Source: an uncultured Lachnospiraceae bacterium (GTDB taxonomy: Bacteria; Bacillota_A; Clostridia; Lachnospirales; Lachnospiraceae). Taken from it: a stretch of 7,106 bases of DNA. Where the stretch lies: positions 1-7,106 of the forward strand of contig CADBNG010000440.1 of NCBI GenBank assembly GCA_902795985.1, read 5' to 3'. This document shows, piece by piece, positions 232-7,106 of the stretch. Below the pieces are notes generated by a model. It was not told where the DNA came from. It searched no databases and saw only the letters and a list, made by a program, of their open reading frames with translations. Both the position numbers and the translations under genes were made by a program. The number at the start of each line of letters is the position of its first letter. Position 1 is the stretch's first letter.

Positions 232-1392
232 ATGAACAAAAAGACATTGATCGTCAGCGTCTCTGTGATCGCGGCCTGGATTATCGTTATGGCAATCGGG
301 GCTTACGGAATTCACTGGGCTCCTGCCGCAAACGCAGGCACCCCCTCTTCCGTAAACAGAGTATGGCTGACCTGTTTTATTGTCGTCCTCGCGATCATCG
401 CCGCCGCAGCCCTCATCCGGCTGTTCGCGGTCCCGCGATTCAAAGTCGTCCCGGGCCGCTTTCAGGCCCTGATCGAAGGAATCGTCAAATTCTTCCGCCC
501 GAAAAAGCGCAAGAACGACCTGATGCCGAAAAAAGTCCGGATCACCGCAACGATCATTCTTGTGGCCTGGATCTTCATTTCCTTCTTCGGGTCCCTGATC
601 GCGGCAGGCAACGCCAAGACCGAAACCCTGGCCGAGACACTGCGGGATGCCGTCCTGCATGAGGCAAACAAGGTCTTCTTCTTCGGTATGGAGGTCAATC
701 CGGCTGTCCTTTCCAGCTTCATCATGGTCATTCTGATCCTGATCGGGGCGCTGCTGATCCGGATCTTCATTATTCCAAGGTTCAGCTACACTCCCGGGAA
801 GCTCCAGATCCTGGTGGAACTGCTCGTCAGCTTCTTTGACAATCAGGCGCATACCAAATCCAGAAAGCTCAACCGTTTCCTCGGCGCCTATATGCTGGCT
901 GCCGGCAGCTACATTTTCTGGGGCACCATGTCCGAGCTTCTGGGTATTCAGCTGAAAACCACGGAAGGCCACTTTATTGCCATGTCGGCGCCGCTGTCCG
1001 ATATCAACGGGGCCATCTGTCTCGGTGTTCTTTCCTATATTATCATTCTGGCCTCCGGTATCGCCGGCAACGGAGTCAAGGGAATCGGATATACCTTAAA
1101 GGAGTTTTCCCTTCCCATTTCCATGAGCTTCCGTCTTTTCGGCGCGCTGCTGTCCGGTCTTCTTGTTACGGAACTGGTCTACTACGTGCTGCAGCTCAGC
1201 TTTGTCCTGCCGGTTATCGTCGGCATCATGTTTACCTGTATTCACGCCATTATGCAGACCTACATTCTGTGCATGCTCGTATCCATGTATTCTGCGGAGG
1301 TCTCTGAGGACCATCCGAAGAAAATAAAAGTAAAAAAAGTCAGAAAAAAGAAACAAAAAAATATTCAGGTCCAGGCCGGAGCTGAGGGTTAA
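232..1392 (+). CDS. atpB: F-type ATP synthase subunit a, with duplicated N-terminal membrane module
   Basis: Subunit a forms the two ion half-channels beside the c-ring in the membrane part of the ATP synthase. The protein has 386 residues, against roughly 220-270 in most bacteria. Family signatures are in the C-terminal half: RLFG with the essential arginine at R301 (E. coli aR210), and MQTYI with Q342 (E. coli Q252). The excess length is N-terminal. Residues 41-88 and 155-202 are copies of the first conserved transmembrane segment plus its amphipathic PRF...PG..Q.L.E...FF stretch, and each copy is preceded by a further hydrophobic helix containing AWI (about 5-28 and 102-126). Around three extra membrane helices are therefore predicted. 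Residues 361-386 form a lysine-rich tail. At E. coli positions 214, 219 and 245 the protein has A305, L310 and T335, while E314 and H338 lie about one helical turn away. Identity is secure; the effect of the changes is inferred. It is the first gene of the operon; no atpI precedes it. Confidence 0.95.
   Translation: MNKKTLIVSVSVIAAWIIVMAIGAYGIHWAPAANAGTPSSVNRVWLTCFIVVLAIIAAAALIRLFAVPRFKVVPGRFQALIEGIVKFFRPKKRKNDLMPKKVRITATIILVAWIFISFFGSLIAAGNAKTETLAETLRDAVLHEANKVFFFGMEVNPAVLSSFIMVILILIGALLIRIFIIPRFSYTPGKLQILVELLVSFFDNQAHTKSRKLNRFLGAYMLAAGSYIFWGTMSELLGIQLKTTEGHFIAMSAPLSDINGAICLGVLSYIIILASGIAGNGVKGIGYTLKEFSLPISMSFRLFGALLSGLLVTELVYYVLQLSFVLPVIVGIMFTCIHAIMQTYILCMLVSMYSAEVSEDHPKKIKVKKVRKKKQKNIQVQAGAEG
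352..837 (+). repeat. Internal tandem duplication in subunit a (coding repeat)
   Basis: The segments encoding residues 41-88 (352-495) and 155-202 (694-837) align without gaps over 48 residues with about 23 identities by my count. These include the shared words LIR.F, PRF, PG, Q.L.E and FF. The second copy connects to the rest of subunit a and corresponds to the canonical first segment, so the first copy is the added one. The preceding hydrophobic helices (AWI at residues 15-17 and 112-114) also match, but the linkers differ in length (longer in the second copy). The DNA of the copies has diverged clearly, so the duplication is not recent and is not an assembly artefact. Confidence 0.9.
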
Positions 1393-1403
1393 AGGAGATT
1401 ATC

Positions 1404-1748
1404 ATGAAAAAAGTCAAAAGTATTGTCGGTTTACTGGTACTGCTTACCGTTGTTTTCGCGGTGTCCGCTCTCGTTTTCGCGGATGGCGGAGATGCTGCAG
1501 CCGCAGAAGCGGCCGCTTCCTCTTCCATCATGGGCAAGGCACTGGGCGCCGGTATTGCCATCGCCGTGGCGGCCGGTCTTGGCGCGCTCGGTATGGGACT
1601 TGCCACCGGACGTGCTGCCGAATCCATGGCCCGTCAGCCGGAGATCAAGGGCGATATCCGTACCAACCTGATCCTGGGTATCGTTTTCATGGAAACCGCG
1701 ATCATCTATGCCCTGATCGTAGCGATCCTGATTATCTTCGTAATGTAA
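1404..1748 (+). CDS. atpE: F-type ATP synthase subunit c with signal-peptide-like leader
   Basis: Subunit c is the membrane hairpin that oligomerises into the rotating c-ring and carries the ion on a carboxylate. At 114 residues it is longer than the usual 70-90. Residues 1-27 look like a signal peptide: basic KKVK, a hydrophobic stretch 7-25, and VFA before DGG. An Ala-rich linker (28-42) then leads to helix 1 (about 44-72, glycine-rich), the polar loop ARQPE (76-80, R77-Q78-P79) and helix 2 with carboxylate E97 in METAIIY. Aligned to the Ilyobacter sodium-type c subunit through the RQP loop, the position of Q32 is M64, while T98 and Y102 match S66 and Y70. The sodium site is thus incomplete and proton coupling is more likely. 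Leader-bearing c subunits are known, for example in Campylobacter. AAAGGAG overlaps the atpB stop, 6 bases before this ATG. Confidence 0.97.
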   Translation: MKKVKSIVGLLVLLTVVFAVSALVFADGGDAAAAEAAASSSIMGKALGAGIAIAVAAGLGALGMGLATGRAAESMARQPEIKGDIRTNLILGIVFMETAIIYALIVAILIIFVM

Positions 1749-1770
1749 TACTGGAAGGGAGTTTGCAGAT

Positions 1771-2259
1771 ATGTTAGGAATAGATATTCAGCAGATCTTT
1801 CTTCATTTACTGAATTTCGGCATCCTTTTCGGCGGACTGTATTTTATTCTCTACAATCCGGTCAAGAAATTCATGGACAAGCGCGTCGAGCATTACGCGC
1901 AGCTTGAAGATGAAGCCCAGGCAAAATTAAAAGACGCCGAAGCCTTAAAGGCCGAGCATGAAGAAAGCTTAAGCAACTTAAAGACCGAGCTTTCCGAAAA
2001 GCGCGCGGCCGCCGATAAGGAAATCAGCAAATACAGAGAAGAACAGACAAGAGAGGCCCGGGAAGAAGCTCAGAAAATCATCGACAATGCGACCCAGACC
2101 GCGAAGCGCGAGCACGACCGCATCATCGAACAGTCTTCTACCGAACTCACCGATCTTGCGGTAAAAGCAGCGAAAAAGGTTATGGAAGAGCCGGTTTCGG
2201 ATTCCTATGACCGCTTCCTGGATGCTGCGGAGAAGGAGCTTTTAAATGAGCAGTCTTGA
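1771..2259 (+). CDS. atpF: F-type ATP synthase subunit b
   Basis: Subunit b is the peripheral-stalk protein that links subunit a in the membrane to the F1 head. The 162-residue length is normal. One transmembrane helix covers residues 9-28, followed by the family motif NPVKKFMDKR (29-38) and a long charged coiled coil (about 38-130). The C-terminal part, with ELTDLAVKAAKKVM (125-138), is typical of the region that contacts delta. A ribosome site GGAAGGGAG precedes ATG 1771 by 9 bases. Only one b-type gene is present, so a b homodimer is expected. The C-terminus ends normally and contains nothing of the missing delta N-terminal domain, so this is not a b-delta fusion of the mycobacterial kind. 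The end overlaps the next gene by 14 bases, suggesting translational coupling. Confidence 0.97.
   Translation: MLGIDIQQIFLHLLNFGILFGGLYFILYNPVKKFMDKRVEHYAQLEDEAQAKLKDAEALKAEHEESLSNLKTELSEKRAAADKEISKYREEQTREAREEAQKIIDNATQTAKREHDRIIEQSSTELTDLAVKAAKKVMEEPVSDSYDRFLDAAEKELLNEQS
2233..2238 (+). promoter_or_regulatory. Ribosome binding site fixing the delta/alpha fusion start
   Basis: AAGGAG lies 7 bases before ATG 2246, inside the 3' end of atpF. It shows that translation starts ahead of the delta-like segment, so that segment is part of the product. No comparable site exists at the alpha boundary (around 2485-2495), where a separate alpha start would be expected. Confidence 0.8.
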
Positions 2260-3988
2260 GAATATGAACCAGGCTGTCCTCTGTTCTTCGGAAGCCCCTT
2301 CCGAGGAGCAGAAGCAGCGGTTTCTCGATTTTCTGAAAAAGAAATACCATGAGGATTTCGAGCTCGTCTGGGAAAAGGACGACTCCGTCCGCGCGGGCTT
2401 TATTTTAAAGGCCGCCGGCCAGATCTACGACTGGAGCGCCAAGGCCCGCTTTGAACAGCTGAAGCGGGACATCAAGAGCAAGGCGGCTTCCCGCGACCAG
2501 CTGATGCCGCTGATGCGCACCATGCTCTCCGACTGGAACGAAGACGTCGCCCCGATCGAAACCGGTACGGTCTTAAGCGTCGGCGACGGCATCGCCACTC
2601 TGAACGGGCTGGACGGCGCCACCTACGGTGAAATCCTTCTGTTTGAAAATGACGTGCGCGGCATGATCCAGGACTTCAAGGAGGACACCGTCGGCTGCAT
2701 CCTTTTCGGTGATGATGAAGAGGTGGAAGCCGGCAGCACAGCCCGCAGGACCGGCCGTACCGCCGGTATTCCGGTCGGCGACGCCTATCTCGGACGCGTT
2801 ATCGACTCCCTGGGTTATCCTGTGGACGGACTGGGCGAGATTGAAGCCGCGGACTACCGTCCCATGGAAGTTCCCGCGCCCGGAATTCTGGAAAGACAGA
2901 GCGTTAACACACCGATGGAAACCGGTATTCTTTCCATCGATTCCATGTTCCCCATCGGCCGCGGACAGCGTGAGCTGATCATCGGCGACCGTCAGACCGG
3001 AAAGACCGCCATCGCCCTGGATACGATCCTGAACCAGAAGGGCAAGGGCGTGGTCTGCATTTATGTTGCCATCGGCCAGAAGGCTTCTTCGGTCTCCCGT
3101 CTTGTGGGAACGCTGAAGAATCACGACGCGATGGACTATACCGTTGTAATCAACGCTTCGGCCAGCGATCCTGTGCCGCTGCAGTACATCGCCCCTTACA
3201 CCGGCTGTTCCCTGGCAGAGTATTTCATGTACAAAGGCCGTGACGTGCTGATTGTCTACGATGATCTTTCCAAGCACGCCATCGCCTACCGTGCTCTTTC
3301 CCTGCTGCTGGAACGCTCCCCCGGACGTGAGGCCTTCCCTGGAGACGTCTTCTATCTCCATTCCCGTCTTCTGGAACGGTCGGCCCGTCTTTCGGATGAG
3401 CTGGGCGGCGGCAGCATTACGGCCCTCCCGATCGTTGAAACCCAGGCCGGGGATATTTCGGCGTACATTCCGACGAATATCATTTCCATCACCGACGGAC
3501 AGATCTTCCTGGAAAGCGACCTGTTCTTTGCCGGCCAGCGTCCCGCGGTCAACGTCGGCCTTTCGGTTTCCCGAGTCGGCGGCGATGCCCAGACCAAGGC
3601 CATGAAGAAAGCGGCCGGTGCCCTGAAGCTGGATCTGGCCCAGTATCGTGAAATGGAAGTATTCACGCAGTTCTCCAGCGATCTGGATGACATTACGAAA
3701 CGTCAGCTGGTTTACGGCGCGGGTCTGATGCGGCTGCTTCGCCAGCCCCAGTACAAGCCCTATTCCCAGCATCAGCAGGTCATCCTCCTGGTTTCTGCCC
3801 TGGGTCATATTTTCGAAACAGTGCCGATCGAACGCATCAACAGCTTCTCGAAAGAGCTTCTGGAGCATTTTGAACTGACGAAGAGCTCCCTCTGCCGCAA
3901 TATTGACGAAAACGGACAGCTTCCGGATAACGTCAAAGAGGAAATTCTCGAAACGGCAAAGGCCTTTCTTGCGGAAACTGATTTATGA
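2246..3988 (+). CDS. atpA: F-type ATP synthase delta (C-terminal domain)/alpha fusion
   Basis: Alpha forms the non-catalytic nucleotide sites of the F1 hexamer. The protein has 580 residues against about 500-510 normally. Alpha itself begins near residue 84 and is intact: beta-barrel from GTVLSVGDG (107-115), Walker A GDRQTGKT (247-254), Walker B LIVYDD (335-340), GREAFPGDVFYLHSRLLER (360-378), and VGLSVSRVGG with the arginine finger R443. The first ~78 residues are not alpha. Residues 17-78 match the C-terminal domain of delta, with PSEEQ, DDSVRAGFIL, and D62 followed by S64AKARFEQL where E. coli delta has DGSVRGRLERL. The separate atpH gene expected between atpF and atpA is absent, as is the delta N-terminal domain. 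The start is fixed by AAGGAG at 2233-2238, in atpF. The alpha assignment is certain and the delta domain highly likely. The product would place three delta C-terminal domains on each enzyme. Confidence 0.97.
   Translation: MSSLENMNQAVLCSSEAPSEEQKQRFLDFLKKKYHEDFELVWEKDDSVRAGFILKAAGQIYDWSAKARFEQLKRDIKSKAASRDQLMPLMRTMLSDWNEDVAPIETGTVLSVGDGIATLNGLDGATYGEILLFENDVRGMIQDFKEDTVGCILFGDDEEVEAGSTARRTGRTAGIPVGDAYLGRVIDSLGYPVDGLGEIEAADYRPMEVPAPGILERQSVNTPMETGILSIDSMFPIGRGQRELIIGDRQTGKTAIALDTILNQKGKGVVCIYVAIGQKASSVSRLVGTLKNHDAMDYTVVINASASDPVPLQYIAPYTGCSLAEYFMYKGRDVLIVYDDLSKHAIAYRALSLLLERSPGREAFPGDVFYLHSRLLERSARLSDELGGGSITALPIVETQAGDISAYIPTNIISITDGQIFLESDLFFAGQRPAVNVGLSVSRVGGDAQTKAMKKAAGALKLDLAQYREMEVFTQFSSDLDDITKRQLVYGAGLMRLLRQPQYKPYSQHQQVILLVSALGHIFETVPIERINSFSKELLEHFELTKSSLCRNIDENGQLPDNVKEEILETAKAFLAETDL
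2270..2479 (+). other. Delta-subunit C-terminal domain encoded at the 5' end of atpA
   Basis: Residues 9-78 of the fusion. In E. coli, this part of delta binds the C-termini of the b dimer. The order of features matches the E. coli delta C-terminus: a helix starting with SEEQ, a Lys-rich segment KKKYHEDFEL, the DxSVxAGxIxxA strand, an ID/YD turn, and a final helix with RFEQLKRDI. About 100 residues of delta N-terminal domain would have to lie upstream, but that space is occupied by the end of atpF. The likely history is loss of the atpH 5' portion together with loss of its stop codon. Confidence 0.85.
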
Positions 3989-4010
3989 TTTAAAGGAACG
4001 GTAAAAGCTT

Positions 4011-6316
<2,306 letters not shown>

Positions 6317-6360
6317 TCCGGCGGACCTGCGCGGAATCCGGAAATTGAAAAGGAATTCCA

Positions 6361-6774
6361 ATGAATACATTTCATTTATCCATTTATGAATCGGACGGCG
6401 TCTTCTATGAAGGCGACTGCGAATCCCTGGTTGTCCCGACGGACACCGGAGACTTCGGAATTATGGCGAATCACGAGAACATCGTTATTGCCATTGTTTC
6501 CGGAGTCATGATGTACCGCACCCCGGAAGACGGCACCCATTATGCTTCCGTTTCGGACGGCATCTGCGTCATGGAGAACAATAAGGTCACCCTTCTCTGC
6601 CCGGCTATCGAGCATCCGGAGGAAATCGACGCGGAACGTTCCCGCCAGGACATCCTGGAAGCCGAAGAGACCCTGAAGATGAACAAGAGCAGGGCCGAAT
6701 ACTTCTCCGCGAAATCGATGCTGGCCAGAAACGCCAACCGGCTGAAGGTGAAGAACAAATACGGTTCGCGTTAA
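6361..6774 (+). CDS. atpC: F-type ATP synthase subunit epsilon
   Basis: Epsilon sits at the foot of gamma, couples it to the c-ring and can inhibit ATP hydrolysis. The 137-residue protein has both usual parts: an N-terminal beta-sandwich (about 1-84, with GDFGIMANHEN at 30-40 and SDGICVMENNKVTLL at 65-79) and a C-terminal two-helix arm (about 88-131, ending in RNANRLKVKNKYG). The sequence IDAERS (89-94) resembles the I(L)DxxRA ATP-binding motif described for Bacillus PS3 epsilon, except that the last Ala is Ser. ATP-sensitive inhibition is therefore possible but unproven. AAAAGGA lies 7 bases before the ATG. It is the last gene of the operon. Confidence 0.96.
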   Translation: MNTFHLSIYESDGVFYEGDCESLVVPTDTGDFGIMANHENIVIAIVSGVMMYRTPEDGTHYASVSDGICVMENNKVTLLCPAIEHPEEIDAERSRQDILEAEETLKMNKSRAEYFSAKSMLARNANRLKVKNKYGSR

Positions 6775-6848
6775 AAATGGTTCCGTGGGTTTATTTCCCT
6801 GATTCATTCGTAAAATACGTTTCATGCTGTTCTATCGGCAGATTTTAA

Positions 6849-6876
6849 CAGGCAGGCCTGCTTTGCAGCCTGCCTG
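6849..6876 (+). terminator. Strong GC-rich hairpin after atpC, probable operon end
   Basis: CAGGCAGG (6849-6856) pairs with CCTGCCTG (6869-6876), and after one bulged C (6857) CTGC (6858-6861) pairs with GCAG (6865-6868) around a TTT loop, giving 12 pairs. It begins 75 bases after the atpC stop. No run of T follows immediately; the next T-rich stretches are in the downstream repeat array. It may work as a weak intrinsic terminator, as a 3'-end stabiliser, or as the first element of the array, whose units carry a similar CCTGAC edge. Bases 6775-6848 show no other recognisable feature. Confidence 0.5.
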
Positions 6877-6878
6877 AC

Positions 6879-7106
6879 GCATCTGAGCTTTCCTGTTTTC
6901 TGCTTCTTAGATGCCCGAAGCAGGGTTCCCGCCCAGCCTGACGCATCTAAACTTCCACTTTTTCTTTCCTTAGATGCCCGGAACAGTGTTCCCGCTCACC
7001 CTGACGCATCTAATTCCCGACTTTTTTTCATTCTTAGATGCAGTCCCTGCTGCCCCAGCTGAATTTTTGCATCTAAGTTTCCATCTTTCTCTTCTTTTAG
7101 ATGCCC
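6879..7106. repeat. 63-base-period tandem array of interrupted palindromes (continues past window)
   Basis: The 8-mer GCATCTAA occurs at 6879 (as GCATCTGA), 6943, 7006 and 7069, and its reverse complement TTAGATGC at 6907, 6970, 7034 and 7097. Periods are 63 or 64 bases. Between left and right arm are 19-20 bases, always pyrimidine-rich on the + strand and containing TTCC. Between right arm and next left arm are 27-28 bases; units 1 and 2 agree at 23 of 28 positions there, while unit 3 has diverged. It is not a CRISPR array: the conserved parts are split inverted 8-mers, and the alternating gaps do not fit a repeat-spacer layout. No open reading frame of note crosses it. The function is unknown. 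Confidence 0.92.

Follow-up and report, generated by a model that had tools for sequence, protein, structure and literature searches.

A delta C-terminal domain fused to ATP synthase subunit alpha in an uncultured Lachnospiraceae bacterium, and a possible route to more than one peripheral stalk

That an ATP synthase has a single peripheral stalk and a single a-subunit was long held as a rule. In the excerpts of Ueno et al. 2025 on which we draw (PMC12229609), this limit is reasoned to come from the N-terminal domain (NTD) of subunit delta, which sits on the three-fold axis. The same excerpts describe an engineered Bacillus PS3 FoF1, deltaDeltaN-alpha, in which the NTD was removed and the delta C-terminal domain (CTD) was fused to alpha. 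That enzyme had two stalks on average and up to three, with matching a-subunits; its H+/ATP ratio was 5.8 versus 3.0, and its equilibrium ion-motive force was nearly halved. Natural fusions are also named there, that of Acidaminococcus fermentans (explicitly without the NTD) and those of two UniProt entries (G4Q3K6 and A0A1I2C5T3), and multiple stalks are predicted. Here, we analyze a 7,106-nucleotide stretch of DNA from an uncultured Lachnospiraceae bacterium (contig CADBNG010000440.1 of assembly GCA_902795985.1; hereafter, the window), which contains an ATP synthase operon whose atpA gene encodes a delta CTD joined to the N-terminus of alpha.

The fusion, which a first-pass annotation had proposed from the letters of the window, is confirmed. 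The fused frame runs from an ATG at 2246, 7 nt past AAGGAG (2233–2238), through 3988 and encodes 580 amino acids (aa). It begins within the last codons of atpF, the stop codon of which lies at 2257–2259, and the resulting 14-nt overlap leaves no room for a gene between b and alpha. The list of open reading frames (ORFs) and a Pfam scan contain no separate atpH anywhere in the window, which agrees with the annotation's statement that none stands between atpF and atpA. Its further claim that the segment is translated within alpha from the site at 2233–2238 also holds up, a single protein being the most likely product.

The annotation had assigned the N-terminal ~78 residues to the b-binding CTD of delta. 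In a profile check set beforehand, the first 85 residues alone matched Pfam OSCP (PF00213) over residues 4–75 (profile positions 99–171 of 172, E 2.4e-8, 34.7 bits), and the whole protein matched over residues 5–75 (profile positions 100–171 of 172, E 8.3e-7, 29.7 bits, cut-off 22.3). The delta NTD is absent from the window: OSCP profile positions 1–98 are unmatched, and the frame begins at the CTD. Two full-length delta models, TIGR01145 (31.9 bits, cut-off 57.5) and NF004401, likewise match in their CTD part only and score under their full-length cut-offs. Residues 84–576 are identified as alpha by TIGR00962, at 728 bits versus an equivalog cut-off of 484.45, and in alignment with 2qe7 alpha homology begins at window residue 84, equivalent to residue 6 of that structure. 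With the delta match ending at residue 75, the linker is just a few residues long. The window holds a single operon in the order a-c-b-alpha-gamma-beta-epsilon (232–6774), with the following features.

232..1392, forward strand: atpB, subunit a, 386 aa (Pfam ATP-synt_A, E 6.1e-17)
1404..1748, forward strand: atpE, subunit c, 114 aa, with a signal-like N-terminal extension (Pfam ATP-synt_C, residues 47–110)
1771..2259, forward strand: atpF, subunit b, 162 aa, full length, with a C-terminal YDRFL stretch (Pfam ATP-synt_B, E 1.2e-19)
2233..2238, forward strand: ribosome-binding site AAGGAG of the fused gene, read from the sequence
2246..3988, forward strand: atpA, delta CTD–alpha fusion, 580 aa (ORF; Pfam OSCP, ATP-synt_ab_N, ATP-synt_ab, and ATP-synt_ab_C)
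2255..2470, forward strand: delta/OSCP C-terminal domain, residues 4–75 (Pfam OSCP, E 2.4e-8 for the piece; fold match)
2495..3988, forward strand: alpha proper from its N-terminal helix, residue 84 on (2qe7 alignment; TIGR00962, 728 bits, cut-off 484.45)
4011..4922, forward strand: atpG, gamma (Pfam ATP-synt, E 3.1e-82)
4919..6316, forward strand: atpD, beta, with a GTG start (Pfam ATP-synt_ab, E 1.5e-73)
6361..6774, forward strand: atpC, epsilon, both domains (Pfam ATP-synt_DE_N and ATP-synt_DE)

The predicted fold agrees with this assignment. A model of residues 9–103 (predicted local distance difference test, pLDDT, 77) gave seven Foldseek matches in the PDB at E up to 0.001, all of them ATP synthase chains; six of the seven come from entries in which the chain that matches bears the name delta or OSCP. 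The full-length model (pLDDT 73) has a weak nucleotide domain, and the structural search made with it bore mainly on residues 102–580; the claim for the CTD fold therefore rests on the separate domain model. A profile of 29 fused CTDs found its best PDB match in 9jc1_I, a 580-aa delta–alpha chain (E 7e-7). This entry is titled "Engineering of ATP synthase", and from this title and the chain name we take it to be the engineered enzyme of Ueno et al. The window protein aligns with 9jc1_I continuously over window residues 10–562, across the junction, which is 3 residues shorter in the natural protein.

The window enzyme thus resembles the engineered PS3 enzyme in having the CTD N-terminal to alpha, no NTD, no separate delta, a length of 580 aa, and a junction within 3 residues. 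The PS3 enzyme is man-made, comes from another species, and lacks the epsilon C-terminal domain, whereas epsilon is whole in the window; the stalk number was measured in PS3. Going by the published description and not by sequence, the window is also like Acidaminococcus fermentans in having a delta–alpha fusion without the NTD. Since both that fusion and the engineered enzyme are in print, the architecture is not new.

Other ATP synthases place delta differently. The canonical F-type operon of E. coli (L122) has counterparts of a, c, b, alpha, gamma, beta, and epsilon in the same order as the window, but b and alpha are separated there by a gene for delta. In the mycobacterial b–delta fusion (PDB 7jg5), the delta CTD is covalently tied to a partner, as in the window, and 7jg5_d is matched by the fused-CTD profile (E 6.6e-4); delta is joined there to b (445 aa) rather than to alpha. 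The 162-aa b of the window has no OSCP match up to E 10 in Pfam, consistent with the view of the first-pass annotation that the two fusions differ. N-ATPases, as described in the excerpted text of PMC11738941 and PMC5706428, also have no separate delta. Positions 176–245 of the N-ATPase b model TIGR03321 resemble the window CTD (E 9.4e-7), so that the delta-like piece is on b in those enzymes and on alpha here. Membership of the N-ATPases is ruled out by the window's gene order, which differs from beta-epsilon-X-X-a-c-b-alpha-gamma (excerpts of PMC11738941), and by a score of 594.7 bits with the N-ATPase alpha model TIGR03324, below its cut-off of 750.5.

The fused domain is constrained as a protein. 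Between the window and L001, the locus of the nearest named relative (genome G001), the proportions of synonymous (pS) and nonsynonymous (pN) differences are 0.81 and 0.15 in the CTD and 0.61 and 0.10 in the alpha core. The pS and pN of the CTD are 0.71 and 0.41 against L002, and 0.75 and 0.42 against L021. The pN far below pS against L001 supports such constraint. The only OSCP match in the G001 genome is the fused one.

A scan of one genome per species with the fused query returned at least 576 confirmed relatives; the best 80 of 576 were kept and hence are no unbiased sample. The CTD is at the N-terminus of alpha in all 80 loci, the record titles of which include Lachnospiraceae, Oscillospiraceae, Faecalibacterium, Flintibacter, Anaeromassilibacillus, and Mogibacterium. 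Of these loci, 61 have precisely the complete order a-c-b-[CTD]alpha-gamma-beta-epsilon, and most of the remaining 19 run into a contig end or had single genes called differently. Across the 79 loci with a b gene, the b-to-alpha gap ranges from −116 to +232 nt, with an overlap in 70. When five true canonical deltas were used as queries against ORFs of at least 60 aa in the 80 loci, the fused alphas were matched and nothing else. The C-terminal motif of b is retained in 66 of 71 relatives (b of 140–200 aa). Five residues are invariant in 29 fused CTDs (P10, F21, F44, L46, and W55, in the numbering of the aligned pieces), with W55 lying in a YDWS-like motif.

The delta–alpha fusion is common in Clostridia. 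Of 391 genomes sampled from the class to which G001 belongs, 37 had a fused frame. Forty-one genomes had a frame of at least 500 aa, and four were not counted: G274 and G168, where stop codons separate delta from alpha, and G271 and G203, in which only the alpha side was matched. By the range of the OSCP profile matched, the 37 divide into 29 CTD-only and 8 full-length fusions; in the latter, the match begins at profile positions 18–35 in frames of 671–691 aa, while most others begin at position 94 or later. In G066 and G028, the separate delta alone was matched by OSCP. In L092 (G165) and in G240, the OSCP match crosses one stop codon upstream, possibly a chance extension or a relic of a former NTD. 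Eighteen of the 37 frames were read besides L001, and 83–183 residues precede the alpha core in all 18. Samples of two orders, overlapping partly with the class sample, gave fused frames in 25 of 245 genomes (24 clear rows plus G619; G203, G458, G532, and G551 were not counted) and in 29 of 246. The annotation had called a delta–alpha fusion a solution different from the b–delta one, of a distribution unknown to its author; the distinction stands, but the architecture is already in print, is common in Clostridia, and most likely has more than one origin.

Other arrangements were also found. A search with P0017 returned 231 proteins at E up to 1e-3, and most of the 120 listed are ~675 aa long and combine delta and alpha, as full-length fusions do. 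Read by eye, one relative, P0027 (782 aa), has a doubled delta NTD ahead of the CTD, in the order NTD-NTD-CTD-alpha. L123 encodes a protein of 675 aa (5041–7068) with two tandem CTDs ahead of alpha and a second copy of the first-helix region of alpha, an arrangement that would provide each F1 with six potential docks for stalks. Searching with the L086 fused alpha returned 27 relatives, with no named Negativicutes species among these. In 14 fused operons that were inspected (11 CTD-only and 3 full-length), b is intact, and no hidden NTD gene was seen by eye between c and alpha among ORFs of at least 50 aa.

We built a tree of the alpha core, with the delta part removed, from 58 rows; 19 of 77 rows, partly near-copies, were left out. 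The window falls inside a CTD-only clade of 22 rows (support 100/98), nested in a wider clade of 37 rows (100/99) that adds full-length fusions and L101 and L105, in both of which a separate delta is present. Further CTD-only fusions fall outside the wider clade (L088, L089, and L090; L087; L093). In approximately unbiased (AU) tests, a single origin of all fusions was rejected at p 3e-13 and the grouping of every CTD-only form in one clade at p 4e-54, for groups that were defined by architecture and tested after the tree had been seen; a third test (p 7e-6) used a group picked from the tree. These rejections and the scatter of CTD-only forms over the tree point to more than one origin. Both the fusion and the CTD-only state thus most likely arose more than once, although the tree alone cannot separate gain from loss.

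Genomes with the fused enzyme often encode a second rotary ATPase. Seventeen genomes were picked from the 80 loci, 12 without another OSCP gene and 5 with a canonical delta as well. The V/A-type D subunit (PF01813) is present in 12/12 of the former and 0/5 of the latter, and V_ATPase_I scores over its cut-off in 11/12 and 0/5, with one weak match in G011. All five canonical operons contain delta-alpha-gamma; beta and epsilon follow in four, and in L083 the contig stops after gamma. All 17 genomes therefore have a second rotary ATPase, of V/A type in 12 and canonical F type in 5. RnfC_N matches in 16 of the 17 genomes but also in controls such as Bacillus subtilis, and so says little.

In the class sample, with 18 genomes of weak OSCP matches set aside as ambiguous, 20 of the 25 genomes with only the fused form have a V/A-type enzyme, as do one (G066) of the 12 with both fused and canonical enzymes and 74 of the 162 with only the canonical form; seven canonical operons (L115–L121) were read among the 12 genomes with both types. 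G066 and G273 each contain a full-length OSCP frame and so are not among the fused-only genomes. Overall, 32 of 37 fused genomes have a second rotary ATPase compared with 74 of 162 canonical-only genomes (Fisher p 6e-6, kinship ignored). Absences in these counts are weak, as many of the genomes are metagenome-assembled. The pattern fits a division of labor between two gears, without proving it.

We propose, with a probability of roughly 0.6, that delta has been cut down in this enzyme to its b-binding CTD on each alpha, and that the enzyme carries several stalks and a-subunits, has a high ion/ATP ratio, and works as a low gear beside a second ATPase. What the sequences themselves show is the fusion, the loss of the NTD, the lack of an atpH in the operon, the kept C-terminus of b, purifying selection, recurrence, and repeated origin. 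Because the CTD is part of alpha, each of the three alphas would bear its own dock for a b2 stalk. In ordinary enzymes, the NTD of delta lies on the three-fold axis, grips the alpha N-termini, and permits only one stalk; here it would no longer be needed, and it is absent. Direct docking of b2 to each CTD, as in ordinary delta, is supported by homology and by the behavior of the engineered PS3 enzyme. The enzyme would then probably carry more than one stalk and a-subunit, at a high ion/ATP ratio. Using more ions per ATP would allow ATP synthesis at low ion-motive force; in the reverse mode, many ions would be pumped per ATP against a small gradient. For an assumed c10 ring, one, two, and three stalks would correspond to 3.3, 6.7, and 10 ions per ATP, with an ATP potential of 45 kJ/mol balanced at 140, 70, and 47 mV.

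Chloroflexus aurantiacus seems to have a natural multi-stalk enzyme. In the 9itj series, we counted 18 alpha chains in 6 entries, 12 delta chains in 6, and 36 a chains in 18, which gives an average entry three alpha, two delta, and two a chains. The series thus appears to be a deposited two-stalk ATP synthase, and no paper on it was found in the literature searched. Delta is a separate 157-aa chain in Chloroflexus, whereas the delta CTD of the window is fused to alpha.

Several observations weigh against a multi-stalk enzyme. Our searches found no stoichiometry or structure of a natural delta–alpha enzyme. The full-length delta–alpha relatives keep the NTD, and since three NTDs cannot all sit on the axis, fusion alone is no proof of several stalks. 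Subunit a has ~100 extra residues, which could hinder the placement of three copies around the c-ring. Triple-stalk particles of the engineered enzyme were very few by cryo-EM in the excerpts of Ueno et al. (PMC12229609), and 5 of the 37 fused genomes have no second rotary ATPase that we found, in a comparison uncorrected for kinship. The main rival is a single-stalk enzyme in which one of the three CTDs engages b2 and two are idle, the fusion serving to spare a gene and tie the CTD to alpha. The operon would suit such an enzyme, with one atpB and one atpF as usual, as would the NTD of the full-length relatives and the many engineered particles that had lost stalks (same excerpts, PMC12229609). 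The engineered equivalent nevertheless averages two stalks there, even if it had also been stripped of the C-terminal domain of epsilon; CTD-only forms occur at several positions of the tree, and the doubled CTD of L123 would be odd if three were already excessive. We regard a single stalk as possible but doubtful.

A different stoichiometry would arise if internal initiation or proteolysis near residue 84 left only about one-third of the alphas with a CTD, giving mixed hexamers with the classical one dock per F1. In-frame ATGs do occur at window residues 87, 90, and 93, where an unfused alpha would begin, but none has a Shine–Dalgarno (SD)-like site, and an internal start is not supported in the window. 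Among 80 genes (the window plus 79 loci; L075 was dropped because the motif was not found), 22 show, within the linker or first-helix stretch, a start codon accompanied by an SD-like 4-mer and might thus allow an internal start; 30 have no ATG there at all. Mixed hexamers therefore strike us as improbable. We give hardly any credence to an untranslated upstream part of the frame or to an artefact of assembly or annotation, for which no support was found: the fused architecture recurs in all 80 best loci, across many assemblies and including isolates, an SD-like site precedes the start codon N-terminal of the CTD in 72 of 80, and the CTD shows the low pN relative to pS against L001 described above.

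The multi-stalk reading can be extended to the wider group. On the available comparisons, the chances are about even that gut Clostridia hold natural multi-stalk enzymes, with two or three b2–a units per F1 and 2–3 times the usual number of ions per ATP, that these evolved several times, and that they are kept beside a differently geared ATPase.

Other subunits of the operon also have unusual features. Subunit a contains an internal repeat, residues 40–94 against 154–212 (44% identity over 59 columns, E 5e-9), which indicates that its N-terminal membrane part is partly duplicated. It is 386 aa long in the window and 393 aa in L001, and mostly 264–325 aa in the 80 loci. Subunit c is 106–167 aa long (median 125) with a signal-peptide-like N-terminal extension in the 74 of 80 loci where a c gene was found; it is mostly 72–103 aa in the other loci read. 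The c-subunit of the window has the E-T...Y motif, with M at the position where Na+ rings have Q. Upstream of the operon, positions 21–91 form a near-perfect inverted repeat (35-nt arms, 97%), possibly a terminator or a mobile repeat. After atpC, positions 6869–7106 hold degenerate direct repeats at 63–64 nt spacing, with AGATGC and GCATCT stretches.

Beyond the literature that we found, this work adds the breadth of the fusion in Clostridia, its repeated origin, the full-length relatives, the doubled NTD and the doubled CTD, and the co-occurrence with a second ATPase. No further papers on a delta–alpha fusion turned up in a search that most subscription journals and bioRxiv lay outside of, so their absence is unproven. 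If the multi-stalk reading is true, the ion cost of ATP would be set by stalk number besides c-ring size, and a sizeable share of the class (CTD-only fusions occur in 29 of the 391 genomes sampled) would hold a multi-stalk machine. The repeated CTD-only fusions would also support, from evolution, the idea drawn from the engineered enzyme that the delta NTD enforces a single stalk. The fused enzyme is present in cultured strains, which opens the question to work on purified enzyme; Flintibacter muris DSM 110149 shows the fused form alone, and Faecalibacterium gallinarum JCM 17207 has both the fused and the canonical form. As its design is the same as that of the 2025 engineered enzyme, which bears as many as three stalks and can make ATP when the ion gradient is weaker, nature may already use such machines.

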